40,465 nucleotides of DNA from the NCBI GenBank assembly GCA_944322825.1, contig CALUQD010000009.1, positions 1 to 40,465 of the forward strand, in the 5' to 3' direction. The notes under the pieces were generated by a model. It saw only the letters and a list, made by a program, of their open reading frames with translations, ran no database searches and was not told the DNA's origin. The stretch is from Candidatus Avelusimicrobium pullicaecorum. GTDB lineage: Bacteria; Elusimicrobiota; Elusimicrobia; Elusimicrobiales; Elusimicrobiaceae. Positions within the stretch are counted from its first letter, which is position 1. Each line of letters starts with the position of its first letter. Positions 8,675 through 40,465 of this stretch are shown here, piece after piece. The translations under genes were made by a program, and so were the position numbers.

Positions 8675-9741
8675 TTGTTTTTCCTGTCCGTGTTGTGTAC
8701 CAAAGAACCCCAGTGGTATTCTTCTGAGGAGAGAAGTTCCCCGTTTTCGGCATAGATGTTGCGTTTCCCTTCCAGCATCCCTTCCGAGTAAAATTCTTCC
8801 AAATGTATTTTCCCCGAAGCAAAATAGCCGAAACGCTCCCCGTCCAAGCGGCCGTTGTTGTAATTTTCGCGGTACCATAATTCACCGGTGGGGAAATAAA
8901 GCAGTCGTTCTCCGTGCAGTTTCCCCGCGGAGAAAAGCGCCTCGCTTTCTTTGCAGCCGTTGGGGTAGTAACAGGTGCGTTTCCCGTCCAGGCGGCCGCG
9001 TTTGTATGTTTCTTCTTGGCGCAGGGTGCCGTCTTTTTGTTTGATGATCCGTTTGCCTTCCAGCAAAGAATTCTTATACGTACATTGGGCGTGCAAGGTG
9101 TCGTGCTTGAGGGAGGTGAAGTATTCCGCCGGTCCCTGCAAAATGCCGTTTACATATTCTTCTCGCGAAAGCAGTACGCCGTTGTCGTCGTAGCGCAGAA
9201 CGGGGCCGTTTAATTTGTTGGCTTTATAATGGGCTTCTGTTTTGACGAGGCCGTTTTCGCCAAATTCTTTTACTTCTCCGTCCGGGATTTGCCCCAAAAT
9301 TTCCAGCGTTACCCCGTTGGAGGACAGCGTTTCTTCGGCCACTTCTTTTCCGTTGATGTAAAAAGAATTGGTGTTTTTGTTGCTTTTTAATATGGTGCCG
9401 GGATAGAGGCGGACGGCTTTTTCTTCCTTGTTTTCTTTAGGTGTATTTTTGAGAATGTTTCGTTCGGTAATGCTGACAAGGTGGCCGTTTTCGTATTGTT
9501 CGCTGTAAGTAACGGTATTGTTTGTTAGGTTGATGACTTCAAATTTGCCGTGCAATTTGCCGCCTTTTACGTTTTTAATCGTGGCGGAGGAAACGCTTAA
9601 TTCGGTAATTTCTCCATCCGGCAGGGCTCCCGTGGTATTGACGATGTTTTGTTCTCTATCCAAAAATTCCTTTGCCAAAGGAATGGCCCGATAATAGGTG
9701 CGGCCGGAAGGAGTGGAAATGCAAATAAATTTTTCTTTCAT
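8671..9741 (-). CDS. MORN-repeat variant protein
   Basis: A 356-residue protein with no signal peptide. From about residue 150 on it consists of repeats of about 22-23 residues of the form E-x-Y-x-x-G-x-L-x-G-x-R-x-x-Y-x-x-N-G (for example YKRGRLDGKRTCYYPNG and YNNGRLDGERFGYFASG), the MORN/YwqK-type beta-hairpin repeat. The N-terminal 130 residues (MKEKFICISTPSGRTYY) are less regular. YwqK-like proteins are sometimes annotated as antitoxins, but no toxin partner is present, so that label is not justified. It heads an operon with ispE and spoVG, with a stop/start overlap. The start is supported by AGGAG 7 bases upstream; an in-frame extension to 10275 runs through the repeat block and is not real. 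Confidence 0.85.
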   Translation of the reverse strand: MKEKFICISTPSGRTYYRAIPLAKEFLDREQNIVNTTGALPDGEITELSVSSATIKNVKGGKLHGKFEVINLTNNTVTYSEQYENGHLVSITERNILKNTPKENKEEKAVRLYPGTILKSNKNTNSFYINGKEVAEETLSSNGVTLEILGQIPDGEVKEFGENGLVKTEAHYKANKLNGPVLRYDDNGVLLSREEYVNGILQGPAEYFTSLKHDTLHAQCTYKNSLLEGKRIIKQKDGTLRQEETYKRGRLDGKRTCYYPNGCKESEALFSAGKLHGERLLYFPTGELWYRENYNNGRLDGERFGYFASGKIHLEEFYSEGMLEGKRNIYAENGELLSSEEYHWGSLVHNTDRKNK

Positions 9742-10248
9742 ACATAGGCTCCTGTTCTTTGAAGTCATTGTACAATACTTTTTAAAGCGTGTGTGATAAT
9801 CTCTGTCTGCGTGGGGTTTGGGGCGGTTGCGCAAAAGTCGGCTTGGAAAGAACAGTGCGGCCCGGCTCGGGGCCGTTTTTGTAGGGCGCGACATTGCGGA
9901 AACAGTGTGGCTTAAACTAGTCGTGCTAACGGGTAAAGAGTGGGGAGCCCCGGCTCGGGGCCGTTTTTGTAGGGCGCGACACCACAGAAACAGTGTGGCT
10001 CCAGGAGTCGTGTTACCGGGGCAAGGTAAGGGAGGGGCGGCTCGCCTTTTGCGAGAACGTCCCCAACTTGTTGTTCCTTTTTGCGTTAGCACCGTATTTT
10101 GCAAAACCCTGTCCGAGGCAGAGCACCGCGGCCTGGAAGGTCCTGCCCCCGGCAAGGGGCCGTTTCGTTGGAGCGCGGTATTCCAAAAACAGTGTGGCTC
10201 AACCAGTCGTGTTAGCGGGCAAAGAGTGGGGAGCCCAGGCTCTGGGCC
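9742..10248. repeat. Repeat block in front of pilin P2
   Basis: From 9742 to about 9820 the block carries the promoter region of the MORN operon (a TACAAT hexamer on the minus strand at about 9770-9775 is a weak candidate). From about 9850 come GTGTGGC/GAGCCC modules: two units 87 bases apart share CCCGGCTCGGGGCCG (9861 and 9948). From 9988 the block is the first copy of a long direct repeat with 11050 on. A 108-residue open frame at 9993-10319 is present in both copies of the repeat, but has no start signals and is taken as non-coding. Confidence 0.7.
9861..10034. repeat. Tandem pair of 87-bp units
   Basis: The stretch CCCGGCTCGGGGCCG-TTTTTGTAGGGCGCGAC occurs at 9861 and again at 9948, each followed by a variant of GAAACAGTGTGGC. 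Between them lies the GTCGTG...GGGTAAAGAG part of the dispersed module. Only the second unit continues into the long duplicated leader. Confidence 0.65.
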
Positions 10249-10276
10249 TTGATTTGTTTTTTTTTTTTGATACACT
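10229..10276 (+). promoter_or_regulatory. Promoter of pilin P2 with 12-T spacer tract
   Basis: The layout is as in P1: hairpin GCCCAG-GCT-CTGGGC (10233-10247), TTGATT (10249-10254), a 16-base spacer with 12 T (10257-10268), and extended -10 TGA-TACACT (10268-10276). Here the -10 lies about 80 bases before the ATG, so a leader of about 70 bases is expected. Confidence 0.6.
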
Positions 10277-10285
10277 GGGCCTAGC

Positions 10286-10337
10286 GTTGATTTTTGGGCT
10301 GTTAATTATTAGACTGTAATTAAGCACTAAAATCAAC
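10286..10337 (+). promoter_or_regulatory. Nested 5'-leader hairpin of pilin P2
   Basis: GTTGATTTT (10286-10294) pairs with AAAATCAAC (10329-10337) and, inside, TTAATTA (10302-10308) pairs with TAATTAA (10317-10323). It begins within a few bases of the predicted transcript start and ends 5 bases before the AAGGAG site. It may stabilise the message or affect translation. P3 has the same structure. Confidence 0.65.
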
Positions 10338-10354
10338 TTGCTAAGGAGTATTTG

Positions 10355-10895: not shown

Positions 10896-11310
10896 TATAT
10901 AGGAATAAATAGTCAACTTTTTTACAGAACAACAAGTTTTTTCCTATTACATAAGCATCATATTTCACGGGACTCTGTTCCAGGCAGAGTTCCATTCCCT
11001 GGAAGGGGCCCCAGCCTCTGAGATGTTTCGCAAGAGTGCAACATCTCTAAAACAGTGTGGCTCCAGGAGTCGTGTTACCGGGGCAAGGTAAGGGAGGGGC
11101 GGCTCGCCTTTTGCGAGAACGTCCCCAACTTGTTGTTCCTTTTTGCGTTAGCACCGTATTTTGCAAAACCCTGTCCGAGGCAGAGCACCGCGGCCTGGAA
11201 GGTCCTGCCCCCGGCAAGGGGCCGTTTCGTTGGAGCGCGGTATTCCAAAAACAGTGTGGCTCAACCAGTCGTGTTAGCGGGCAAAGAGTGGGGAGCCCAG
11301 GCTCTGGGCC
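10896..11310. repeat. Repeat block in front of pilin P3
   Basis: The first 150 bases hold degraded relatives of the dispersed modules: a CTGTTCCAGGCAGAG stretch and GAGATGT...ACATCTC, a hairpin around a diverged GCGCAAGAGCGCGACATTG. From 11050 the second copy of the long direct repeat begins. No gene is supported; the open frame at 11055-11366 duplicates the one before P2. Confidence 0.65.
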
Positions 11311-11411
11311 TTGATTTGTTTTTTTTTTTTGATACACTGGGCCTAGCGTTGATTTTTGGCTGTTAATTATTAGACTGTAATTAAGCCTTAAAATCAACTT
11401 GCTAAGGAGTT
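11050..11411 (+). repeat. Long direct repeat, copy 2 (pilin P3 leader)
   Basis: This is the second copy of the repeat at 9988-10350, offset by 1062 bases. The copies flank gene P2, so homologous recombination between them could delete or amplify P2. Confidence 0.9.
11291..11338 (+). promoter_or_regulatory. Promoter of pilin P3 with 12-T spacer tract
   Basis: Hairpin GCCCAG-GCT-CTGGGC (11295-11309), TTGATT (11311-11316), 12 T (11319-11330) in a 16-base spacer, and TGA-TACACT (11330-11338). It is identical to the P2 promoter. A nested leader hairpin follows (GTTGATTTT/AAAATCAAC). Confidence 0.6.
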
Positions 11412-34016: not shown

Positions 34017-34309
34017 TATTATCCGGCCGGAGCCCGGCCGAGGCCAAGGGAGTACTTTTTGGGGCGGGAAAAAGTACCAAAAAACGCCCGGTGCCGTTGC
34101 GCAAGAGCGCGACATTGCAGGAACAGTGTGGCGTGCTAGCGGGTAAAGAGAGGGGGGCACCGGCTCTAGGCTGTTGCGTATGGTGCAACAGTGCGGAAAC
34201 AGTGTGGCGTAAACTAATCGCGCTAATGGGTATAGAGTTCCACCCCCTGGAAGGGGCCCTTTTTCTGACGCCAGAAAAAGGGCGAAAAAGAGCGCCGCCC
34301 CAGGGAGCC

Positions 34310-34406
34310 ACAAAAATCACTTTCAAACGGGAAATTTTATAACTTGCGCGGGCTTTGCCCGCGCTCAAACAATAAAATTTTCTAATCCGTTTGAAAGGCT
34401 TTTTGT
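34310..34406 (+). repeat. Nested hairpin element, copy E2
   Basis: ACAAAAA (34310-34316) pairs with TTTTTGT (34400-34406). CTTTCAAACGG (34320-34330) pairs with CCGTTTGAAAG (34387-34397). GAAATTTTAT (34331-34340) pairs with ATAAAATTTTC (34372-34382, one extra T). GCGCGGGC (34346-34353) pairs with GCCCGCGC (34357-34364). Compared with E1, the changed bases in the stems are matched by changed partners. Confidence 0.85.
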
Positions 34407-34510
34407 AGACGGCTCTAAAGGGGGCGGATAAACGACACCAGCAACGATAATGACAGAAGCGGAAACAACGACCACAGTAACGACAGAAGAGAAAAGGGCC
34501 CGCATTTTGG

Positions 34511-34649: not shown

Positions 34650-34699
34650 CCCCGGCGCGGGGGCCTTGACTCGTTTTTTTTTTTTGATAAATTTTGTCT
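34650..34699 (+). promoter_or_regulatory. Promoter of pilin P5 with 12-T spacer tract
   Basis: A GC hairpin (GCCCC...GGGGC, 34649-34664), a -35 of TTGACT (34666-34671, the best match to TTGACA among the pilins), 12 T (34674-34685) in a 16-base spacer, extended -10 TGA-TAAATT (34685-34693) and the ATG 6 bases later at 34700. Confidence 0.7.
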
Positions 34700-39634: not shown

Positions 39635-39731
39635 ATTTGGGGCAGACGGATAAATTGGCACAGCATAGGGAAACGGTACGTTGTGCTAGTCGTGCTAGCG
39701 AACATAGAGCGGGGAGGCCAAGCTTTGGCCC

Positions 39732-39753
39732 CTTTTTCTGGTGCCAGAAAAAG
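39732..39753. repeat. Poly-T/poly-A hairpin
   Basis: CTTTTTCTGG (39732-39741) pairs with CCAGAAAAAG (39744-39753), a perfect 10-bp stem with a 2-base loop. Confidence 0.7.
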
Positions 39754-39871
39754 TACCAAAAAGCGCCCGGTGCCGTTGCGCAAGAGCGCGACATTGCAGG
39801 AACAGTGTGGCCCAACCAGTCGTGTTAACGGGTGAAGGAAAGGGGGCACCGGCTCGGTGCCCCAGGGCCCC

Positions 39872-39968
39872 ATAAAAATCACTTCCAAGCGGGAAATTTT
39901 ATAACTCGCGCGGGCTTTGCCCCGCGCTCAAAAAATAAAATTTCTAATCCGCTTGGAAGGCTTTTTAT
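39872..39968 (+). repeat. Nested hairpin element, copy E3
   Basis: ATAAAAA/TTTTTAT (39872-39878 and 39962-39968), CTTCCAAGCGG/CCGCTTGGAAG (39882-39892 and 39949-39959), GAAATTTTAT/ATAAAATTTC (39893-39902 and 39935-39944) and GCGCGGG/CCCGCGC (39908-39914 and 39921-39927). The outer stems match E1; the top hairpin matches E2 more closely. Confidence 0.85.
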
Positions 39969-40072
39969 AGACGGGGCGAAAGGGCCGGATAAACGGCAAC
40001 AAGCACGGCCACGGCAAAAGCGGAAACGGCTTTCCTTTTTGCCGTTGTTTTTGGGGCCCTTTAGAGCCGCTT

Positions 40073-40167
40073 ATAAAATACGCTTTCGGGCGAAAAAGGC
40101 GTTTTATCTGTCTGAGCGCGGGGGACCCGCGCGAGTTATAAACGCCCGCCCGAAAGGTGTATTTTAT
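40073..40167 (-). repeat. Nested hairpin element, inverted diverged copy E4
   Basis: ATAAAATA (40073-40080) pairs with TATTTTAT (40160-40167). CTTTCGGGCG (40083-40092) pairs with CGCCCGAAAG (40147-40156). GGCGTTTTAT (40098-40107) pairs with ATAAACGCC (40138-40146, one base short). GCGCGGG (40116-40122) pairs with CCCGCGC (40126-40132). Read on the minus strand it has the same parts as E1 in the same order, including the unpaired AACTC before the top hairpin and the bulge on the 3' side. Its stems share few bases with E1. Confidence 0.75.
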
Positions 40168-40192
40168 GGCTCCCCGGGCCCCGCATTTTTTG

Positions 40193-40218
40193 GTACTTTT
40201 TTGTGCCCAAAAAAGTAC
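40193..40218. repeat. Poly-T/poly-A hairpin
   Basis: GTACTTTTTT (40193-40202) pairs with AAAAAAGTAC (40209-40218). It follows E4 as the one at 34511 follows E2. Confidence 0.65.
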
Positions 40219-40256
40219 AGAGGCAATTCATCGTGTTAACGGGTATAGAGAGGGGA

Positions 40257-40304
40257 GCCCAGGCTCTGGGCCTTGATTTGTTTTTTTTTTGATAAATTTT
40301 GGCT
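40257..40304 (+). promoter_or_regulatory. Promoter of pilin P6 with 10-T spacer tract
   Basis: Hairpin GCCCAG-GCT-CTGGGC (40257-40271), TTGATT (40273-40278), 10 T (40281-40290), extended -10 TGA-TAAATT (40290-40298) and ATG at 40305 after 6 bases. The spacer is 14 bases instead of the 16 in the other pilins because the T-run is two shorter. Confidence 0.65.
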
Positions 40305-40465
40305 ATGAACAAAATTTATCAAAAACCCTTCTCGGCGGGGAAAAACGCCGGATTTACGCTAATAGAGCTATTAGTAGTGGTTTTAATCATTGGTATCCTG
40401 GCGGCGGTGGCGTTGCCGCAATATACCAAAGCGGTGGAAAAATCCCGTTTAATGAAATGGGCTCC
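40305..40465 (+). CDS. Type IV prepilin (P6), 5' part
   Basis: The first 53 codons of a prepilin, cut by the window end. The leader [16 protein letters not shown] precedes [19 protein letters not shown], with Glu5 and the KAVEKSR end of the helix. The leader and start-codon palindrome match P1. The variable domain lies outside the window. The promoter has a shorter T-run than the other copies. Confidence 0.88.

Follow-up and report, generated by a model that had tools for sequence, protein, structure and literature searches.

In the 40,465-nucleotide stretch of Candidatus Avelusimicrobium pullicaecorum DNA analysed here (the window), two nested-hairpin elements, E3 and E4, face each other before the type IV pilin gene P6. 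They are copies of one element (E) of about 130 bp with one-sided bulges. We consider them probably to be two convergent copies of a non-autonomous intergenic repeat of the MITE or IDS kind that is old, forms hairpins and travels with pilin cassettes. The finding is larger than first noted: E is a cross-phylum repeat with a conserved DNA fold, and not a pilin device.

Results

E3 and E4 are copies of one nested-hairpin element

E is accompanied in the window by a shorter hairpin, H1, a palindrome of the type TACTTT..AAAGTA followed by CAAAAAG and located 5' of E. The features of the window are the following.

39732..39765, plus strand: H1-type hairpin with degenerate left side (CTTTTTCTGG/CCAGAAAAAG, then GTACCAAAAAG), upstream of E3, first part of an H1+E composite (by reading)
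39766..39856, no strand assigned: a stretch of about 90 bp from a different dispersed repeat (..AACAGTGTGGC..GTCGTGTTAACGGG..), between H1 and E3 (by reading)
39859..39987, plus strand: E3, nested-hairpin element, co-directional with pilin gene P6 (fold, model match, covariation)
39988..40054, no strand assigned: E3-E4 spacer (..GGATAAACGGCAAC..GCGGAAACGGC..)
40055..40180, minus strand: E4, nested-hairpin element of a different stem subtype, reversed and pilin-proximal (fold, model match, covariation)
40186..40218, minus strand: H1 hairpin of E4 (GTACTTTTTT/AAAAAAGTAC), intact, reversed (by reading)
40271..40304, plus strand: promoter-like TTGATTTG-T10-GATAAATTTTG, immediately 5' of the pilin start
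40305..40465, plus strand: type IV pilin gene P6, truncated by the contig end
64..191, plus strand: further E3-type copy (probably the E1 of the initial annotation), 5' of the pilin at 356 (model match)
34295..34428, plus strand: further copy, stem subtype B, 5' of the pilin at 34694 (model match)

The initial annotation had placed E3 and E4 on opposite strands before P6, and this was borne out, with a distance of 60-70 bp and with each element slightly longer than noted. A covariance model (22 copies) matches E3 at 39857-39990 (+) and E4 at 40051-40182 (-). In single-stranded DNA folding, the two strands of E3 reached z scores of -6.6 and -7.3 and those of E4 -6.7 and -6.6, and 0 of 200 shuffles folded as well in each case; with RNA parameters, E3 and E4 fold at z -6.4 to -6.6. 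At the foot of the element is an outer G/C stem, set off by an internal loop from a second G/C stem of 5 bp. Next come a 3' bulge of 4 bases, an A/T-rich stem, a mixed stem, another 3' bulge of 4-5 bases and an inner stem ending in TTTAT. AACTC and TCA(A/G)ACA form the two sides of the internal loop that follows, and the tip is a hairpin whose length varies. The fixed core of the element is AACTCGC..GCTCAAACA. It had been proposed that E4, read on the minus strand, keeps the plan of E1 and E3 (outer A/T stem, G/C stem, 3' bulge, inner stem ending TTTAT, AACTC, GC hairpin). This proved correct, and one more outer stem as well as the loop TCA(A/G)ACA have to be added to that plan.

Three stem types were found: E3-type copies have either CTTCCAAGCGG or CTTTCAAACGG, each with its matching partner, and E4 represents the third. 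Where the stems of E4 depart from those of E3, the changes compensate each other. Covariation was measured in 22 aligned copies, with the structure taken from E3's own fold and with 500 shuffles. In these copies 94.3% of cells were paired, against 87.0% in shuffles, and both sides had changed in 19 of 45 pairs, a number reached by 0 of 500 shuffles (mean 7.8). The covariation score was 0.209 against 0.087 in shuffles, again reached by 0 of 500, and sliding the partner by 1-3 columns reduced pairing to 36-58%. Stem letters are largely free, pairing is not, and loop letters are fixed.

The palindrome is maintained without strand bias. The 173 primary copies contain 7118 stem cells, of which 6684 are Watson-Crick, 101 G-T and 85 A-C; after dereplication at 85% identity (65 copies) there were 41 G-T and 37 A-C. 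When two junction pairs, selected after the counts were seen, were omitted, the dereplicated set held 26 G-T and 31 A-C in 2359 cells. By comparison, 40 tRNA acceptor stems from the same loci held 13 G-T and 0 A-C in 280 cells (Fisher p 0.0003 for 26:31, with the junction pairs omitted, versus 13:0). A conserved RNA is expected to tolerate G-U on its own strand. Since G-T and A-C are about equally rare in E, so that no strand is favoured, unlike in tRNA, the palindrome is kept as DNA and not as RNA.

Close copies are usually convergent. Primary matches less than 500 bp apart form 19 pairs, 15 of them convergent, 4 tandem and 0 divergent. The model matches of the convergent pairs are separated by 29-240 bp. 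For 12 of these 15 pairs a pilin could be located, and the pilin-proximal member is necessarily reversed. The E3-E4 interval is alike in the organism's own genome (G000, 60 bp) and in another genome of the genus (G007, 65 bp). The initial annotation had considered that two related families might be paired, and had advised a search for such pairs elsewhere and for intervals that vary or are missing. The convergent arrangement of 15 of the 19 close pairs and its presence in a Haemophilus chromosome support the pairing; the search brought the 15 convergent pairs, with intervals varying over the range given, and a block that is missing in seven relatives. The second element of one locus (L027:2374-2508) is a chimera of the E4 outer arm, the other E4 arm and the right half of E3, a composition that suggests exchange or template switching at the palindromes. 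The convergent pair is probably the two-copy form of the repeat, as in Haemophilus, and not a pilin-specific device.

The 90 bp repeat at 39766-39856 has CGGTGCC on both edges, as if inserted, and recurs upstream of other pilins. In the copy at 64, H1 and E are not separated by it.

Core and stem recur in other phyla

The pattern AACTCGCTNCGCTCAAACA, scanned over genome_contigs, matches at least 116 stretches. Ralstonia, Variovorax, Flavobacterium, Parabacteroides, Clostridium and Haemophilus are among the matches listed, whose record titles include Proteobacteria, Bacteroidota, Clostridia, Patescibacteria, Desulfobacula, Nitrospirales and others. Of the 122 listed matches with sufficient flanking sequence, 82 are Watson-Crick paired at 8 or 9 of the next 9 positions (best of 12 offsets); in the control with one flank shuffled, 1 of 122 reaches this level. 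The listed cross-phylum instances in which 6 or more pairs form contain 11 G-T and 16 A-C among 1008 cells, and the 3' bulge is visible by eye in many of the 86 cross-phylum instances displayed. The structure had been suggested to be old and strongly kept; the recurrence of core, flanking stem and 3' bulge in other phyla bears this out.

H1 accompanies E in part of this range. In 855 kb of listed cross-phylum loci there are 20 strict H1 hairpins, 16 of which lie within 160 bp of an E core, and 15 of these 16 are on the core's 5' side. As a strict H1 lies near only 16 of the 124 core matches listed from other bacteria, H1 is part of the unit in some lineages and not always. The chromosome of Haemophilus aegyptius carries H1+E as a convergent pair at two places, besides a single copy and a further, weaker single match, and the pairs have the same core and arrangement as the window. 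The Haemophilus copies that were read adjoin other genes and not pilus genes. The Haemophilus pilus is of another class than these pilins.

A phage search with the window pair as query gave no match. The plasmid search with the Haemophilus pair as query returned three Pasteurella records, which match over only 52 bases (12% of the query). ORFs lying up to 4 kb from the core were compared all-versus-all in the listed cross-phylum loci; none of the 12 largest clusters, each represented by one member, looked like a transposase, and the largest cluster was a mix of broad families and repeat-overlapping ORFs.

Most judged copies in the genus lie upstream of pilin genes

The organism's own genome is a 1.52 Mb draft in 80 contigs, 87% complete, with 43 model matches. 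At least one E match at E 0.001 or better was found in 37 of 66 genus genomes, own included. Of 294 genomes sampled evenly over the phylum (Elusimicrobiota), 34 have a match at E 0.0001, and 33 of these belong to the genus; both scans used stricter filters by which weak matches are lost. The sole match outside the genus in the phylum sample is a one-contig genome of another family (G101), with matches at 294175, at 9032 and a third in the fetched locus, none of which adjoins a pilin. Five of the own contigs (C29, C44, C60, C61, C74) stop inside an element and two (C24, C62) start 16 bases before one. As contigs break inside E, the number of E-pilin units is probably underestimated.

Loci were sampled from score-ranked matches and do not include all of them (for example, 22 of the 33 matches in G011). 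The fetched loci hold 170 copies matched over at least 86 bases, 24 of which were left unjudged by a contig or locus end less than 1 kb away. Of the 146 judged copies, 121 lie within 1 kb upstream of a pilin, 86 in the same direction and 35 reversed, and beyond 25 there is no pilin start within 1 kb. All 30 judged copies of the own genome are pilin-linked (27 same direction, 3 reversed; 11 unjudged), and in G011 all 17 judged copies run opposite to the pilin. One of the 11 unjudged copies, an E4 at a contig start (L015), has no pilin in the 2.8 kb to its right: the promoter-like stretch and the pilin are missing after sequence that precedes them in the window. Six genomes (G001, G020, G022, G057, G079, G081) carry E without a pilin between genes that we interpret from their proteins as phosphorylase-like and trmL-like. 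According to the initial annotation, E4-like sequences standing alone, with no link to pilins or to E1-type elements, would speak against its reading. This was seen in part (25 of 146, and L015), beside the 121 of 146 that are pilin-linked; since 25 judged copies are without a pilin, the link is strong in some species and not intrinsic.

At the site between the phosphorylase-like and trmL-like genes, the pilin-less E is seen in loci L084, L081, L083, L080, L076 and L113. In G067, G053 and G043, the same site has an ordinary terminator-like hairpin instead of E.

Across genomes with and without E, copy number of E does not follow the number of pilins. Over 30 genomes, the rank correlation between E copies and pilin-type N-terminal matches was 0.10 (p 0.58), and the median number of such matches was 72 in the 12 genomes without E versus 63 in those with E (the values for G011 and G054 being at least 150 each). 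Within the 18 E-bearing genomes it does, with a rank correlation of 0.69 (p 0.0014, uncorrected for kinship). As E-less genomes are equally rich in pilins and some pilins follow cca without E (see below), E is dispensable for the number and placement of pilins.

Many pilins have their own promoter-like stretch adjoining the start codon. E-linked pilins begin directly after TTGA(T/C)..T(n)-GATAAATTTTG (window 40271-40325 and many others). The T-run before the pilin start measures 10-13 in 27 cases of the own genome, 8-14 in 10 cases of G070 and 16 in one case of G014. Since it occupies the would-be promoter spacer, a change in its length could switch pilin expression. The start codon of P6 lies in the loop of a perfect 16 bp hairpin (40286-40325). 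Elsewhere in the window, the pilins at 10352 and 11416 have near-identical upstream blocks (9985-10345 and 11050-11405), and the model scan matched no E upstream of either; judged by these blocks, they represent a different type of pilin unit that was duplicated in tandem.

Gain and loss between relatives

The E-bearing block is present in some relatives and absent from others at two sites. The first follows cca, where we compared 30 genus loci by model search (some of them end soon after cca, such as those of G041 and G062 after 148 and 126 bases). E was found in 2 of the 30, those of G000 and G007. Seven genomes (G012, G014, G021, G002, G071, G024, G045) have no E and no pilin in about 1.49 kb after cca, and one of them, G012, is the nearest relative by cca protein (99% identical). 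A pilin without E follows cca in 5 of 24 loci examined (G051, G046, G015, G011, G076). The block of G007 comprises repeats, E3, E4, H1, the pilin and a terminator-like hairpin, and is bounded by the cca terminator-like hairpin and by conserved sequence that lies closely 3' of cca in G012. The ends of the block-free sites are too diverged to show a target-site duplication, and the block could be ancestral and lost several times.

The conserved hairpin-rich sequence 3' of cca (CGGCCGGCTGG..GCCGGCCGTCGGTTCCTCA..) was seen in L344, L345, L346, L348, L351, L353, L354 and, in G007, L145. It is possibly an unannotated RNA.

At the second, an lpxK/deacetylase-like site, G007 (L152) and G014 (L055) have one E and no pilin. 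In G021 (L170) the arrangement is E-pilin-E, and the two direct repeats agree at 427 of 482 aligned bases. Such a pair of states is expected if recombination between repeats adds or removes a pilin; a tandem duplication minus one pilin could look identical. E3 and E4 had been named as possible ends of a mobile or recombining unit. This is plausible in so far as related genomes differ in having the block, but no case was seen in which a unit had moved with E3 and E4 as its termini, nor did the search of two enzyme families bring up a mobilising enzyme.

E could also have been carried along as a passenger in segmental duplication or gene conversion of pilin genes with a long upstream region, while replication template switching between the arms keeps the palindrome perfect. 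We judge this unlikely, although several observations fit: homology in the own genome extends past E into the tail (many matches to query 1-170), template switching could give the L027 chimera, and pilins are equally many in E-less genomes. Nevertheless, the one-sided bulges and the unpaired core letters are kept across phyla, where arm correction alone would erase them, and in other species E stands alone at non-pilin sites.

Searches for a mobilising enzyme and other readings

In the two families searched, Y1 transposases and integron integrases, no mobilising enzyme was linked to E. The integrase model (TIGR02249) matches 0 of the 66 genus genomes above cut-off; sub-threshold matches occur in 66 of 66, and also in 14 of 14 control genomes. 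An attC site is used on one strand, and has one-sided extrahelical bases and a variable tip. E might be an attC-like folded site, and pilin plus E a cassette moved by a tyrosine recombinase such as the host Xer. As in attC cassettes, there is one gene plus a single structured site, which at the lpxK/deacetylase-like locus occurs in an empty (E) and a filled (E-pilin-E) state, and the one-sided bulges and variable tip resemble those of attC. Unlike attC cassettes, E comes without an integrase above cut-off, its units are dispersed and not arrayed, and it has no strand bias. R boxes of the consensus GTTRRRY / RYYYAAC were not found by eye at the foot of E. On balance, a cassette of this kind is improbable.

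We give even less credit to E as an RNA element, acting in the pilin leader or as a small RNA that controls pilin expression. The strong RNA folds would suit it, as would the location of most judged copies (121 of 146) upstream of a pilin and within 1 kb of it. However, G-U is no commoner than A-C, all 17 judged copies of G011 are reversed to the pilin, many pilins have a promoter-like stretch next to the start codon, and E matches no Rfam family. At gathering level, the Rfam scan of the window found three tRNAs only, and at 39700-40300 there was one chance-level match (E 0.94, 18.6 bits versus a cut-off of 70). On the parity of G-T and A-C, the reversal in G011 and the lack of an Rfam match, we rejected an RNA regulator as the main reading.

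The Y1 transposase family (PF01797) has matches in 13 of the 66 genus genomes, 12 above cut-off, and some genomes with such an enzyme bear E (G070, G074, G062, G002, G001, G020, G068). None was found in G000, G011 and G007, the three most E-rich, nor in G024; as the own genome is 87% complete, the absence there is not firm. E was found in 0 of 12 Y1 loci of about 1.9-3.4 kb each, searched at E-values up to 1. The least credible reading takes the convergent pairs as REP doublets (REPIN/BIME) mobilised by a REP-associated Y1 transposase (RAYT/TIRYT): REP, REPIN and BIME likewise form convergent palindrome pairs in intergenic DNA and several E-bearing genomes have the enzyme, yet the PF01797 search and the 12 Y1 loci disfavour it, E measures about 130 bp and not 20-40, and it has no constant GTAG/CGTC tag, its foot being, by eye, GTAG in subtype B and ATAG in subtype A.

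Discussion

The closest known counterparts of E may be the IDS, or conserved extragenic elements, of Haemophilus influenzae, as Haemophilus aegyptius holds convergent H1+E with the same core. A citing paper (PMC4144887) attributes IDS to Read et al. 2000, whose title concerns pilus gene clusters, and to Read and Farley 1997, and the likeness to E is to the description in the citing paper. As described there, IDS is an extragenic dyad linked to mobility of pilus loci, whereas the Haemophilus E copies that were read are not at pilus genes. ERIC, YPAL, NEMIS and other MITEs are described as intergenic, dispersed inverted repeats of 70-300 bp with no coding capacity (PMC3733652). E shares their traits, being non-coding, dispersed and an inverted repeat over its whole length. 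MITEs of the ERIC, YPAL and NEMIS type are, to our knowledge, known from narrow groups; unlike them, E has a core and stem layout that cross phyla, and a second hairpin can join the unit. No description of the core or of the element was found in the titles and abstracts searched, which is weak evidence that E is undescribed, most subscription papers lying outside that search.

We favour a non-autonomous repeat whose unit would be the short hairpin H1 followed by the nested hairpin of about 130 bp with its fixed core. Its DNA is predicted to fold or extrude as a hairpin or cruciform, and it would spread by means of a putative trans-acting enzyme and also through being copied along with pilin genes. 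Pilin cassettes of this genus may be gained, lost and exchanged through the homology that the repeats share, which amounts to about 480 bp at one site. The constant core, the free and well-paired stems, the cross-phylum occurrence and the absence of a G-U excess point to a protein or process by which hairpin DNA is read in many bacteria. Should E and the Haemophilus dyads prove to be the same, an old and little studied observation would become general and testable.

It is tempting, though rather speculative, to propose that H1+E are undescribed folded-DNA recombination sites shared across phyla, at which a host or mobile recombinase would read a cruciform with fixed loops and move single genes. 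If so, a pool of pilin cassettes would circulate through dozens of docking sites, in an integron-like manner without IntI. In this genus, E marks the places where surface pilin genes are gained and lost, and could thus provide a handle on the shuffling of this gene family.
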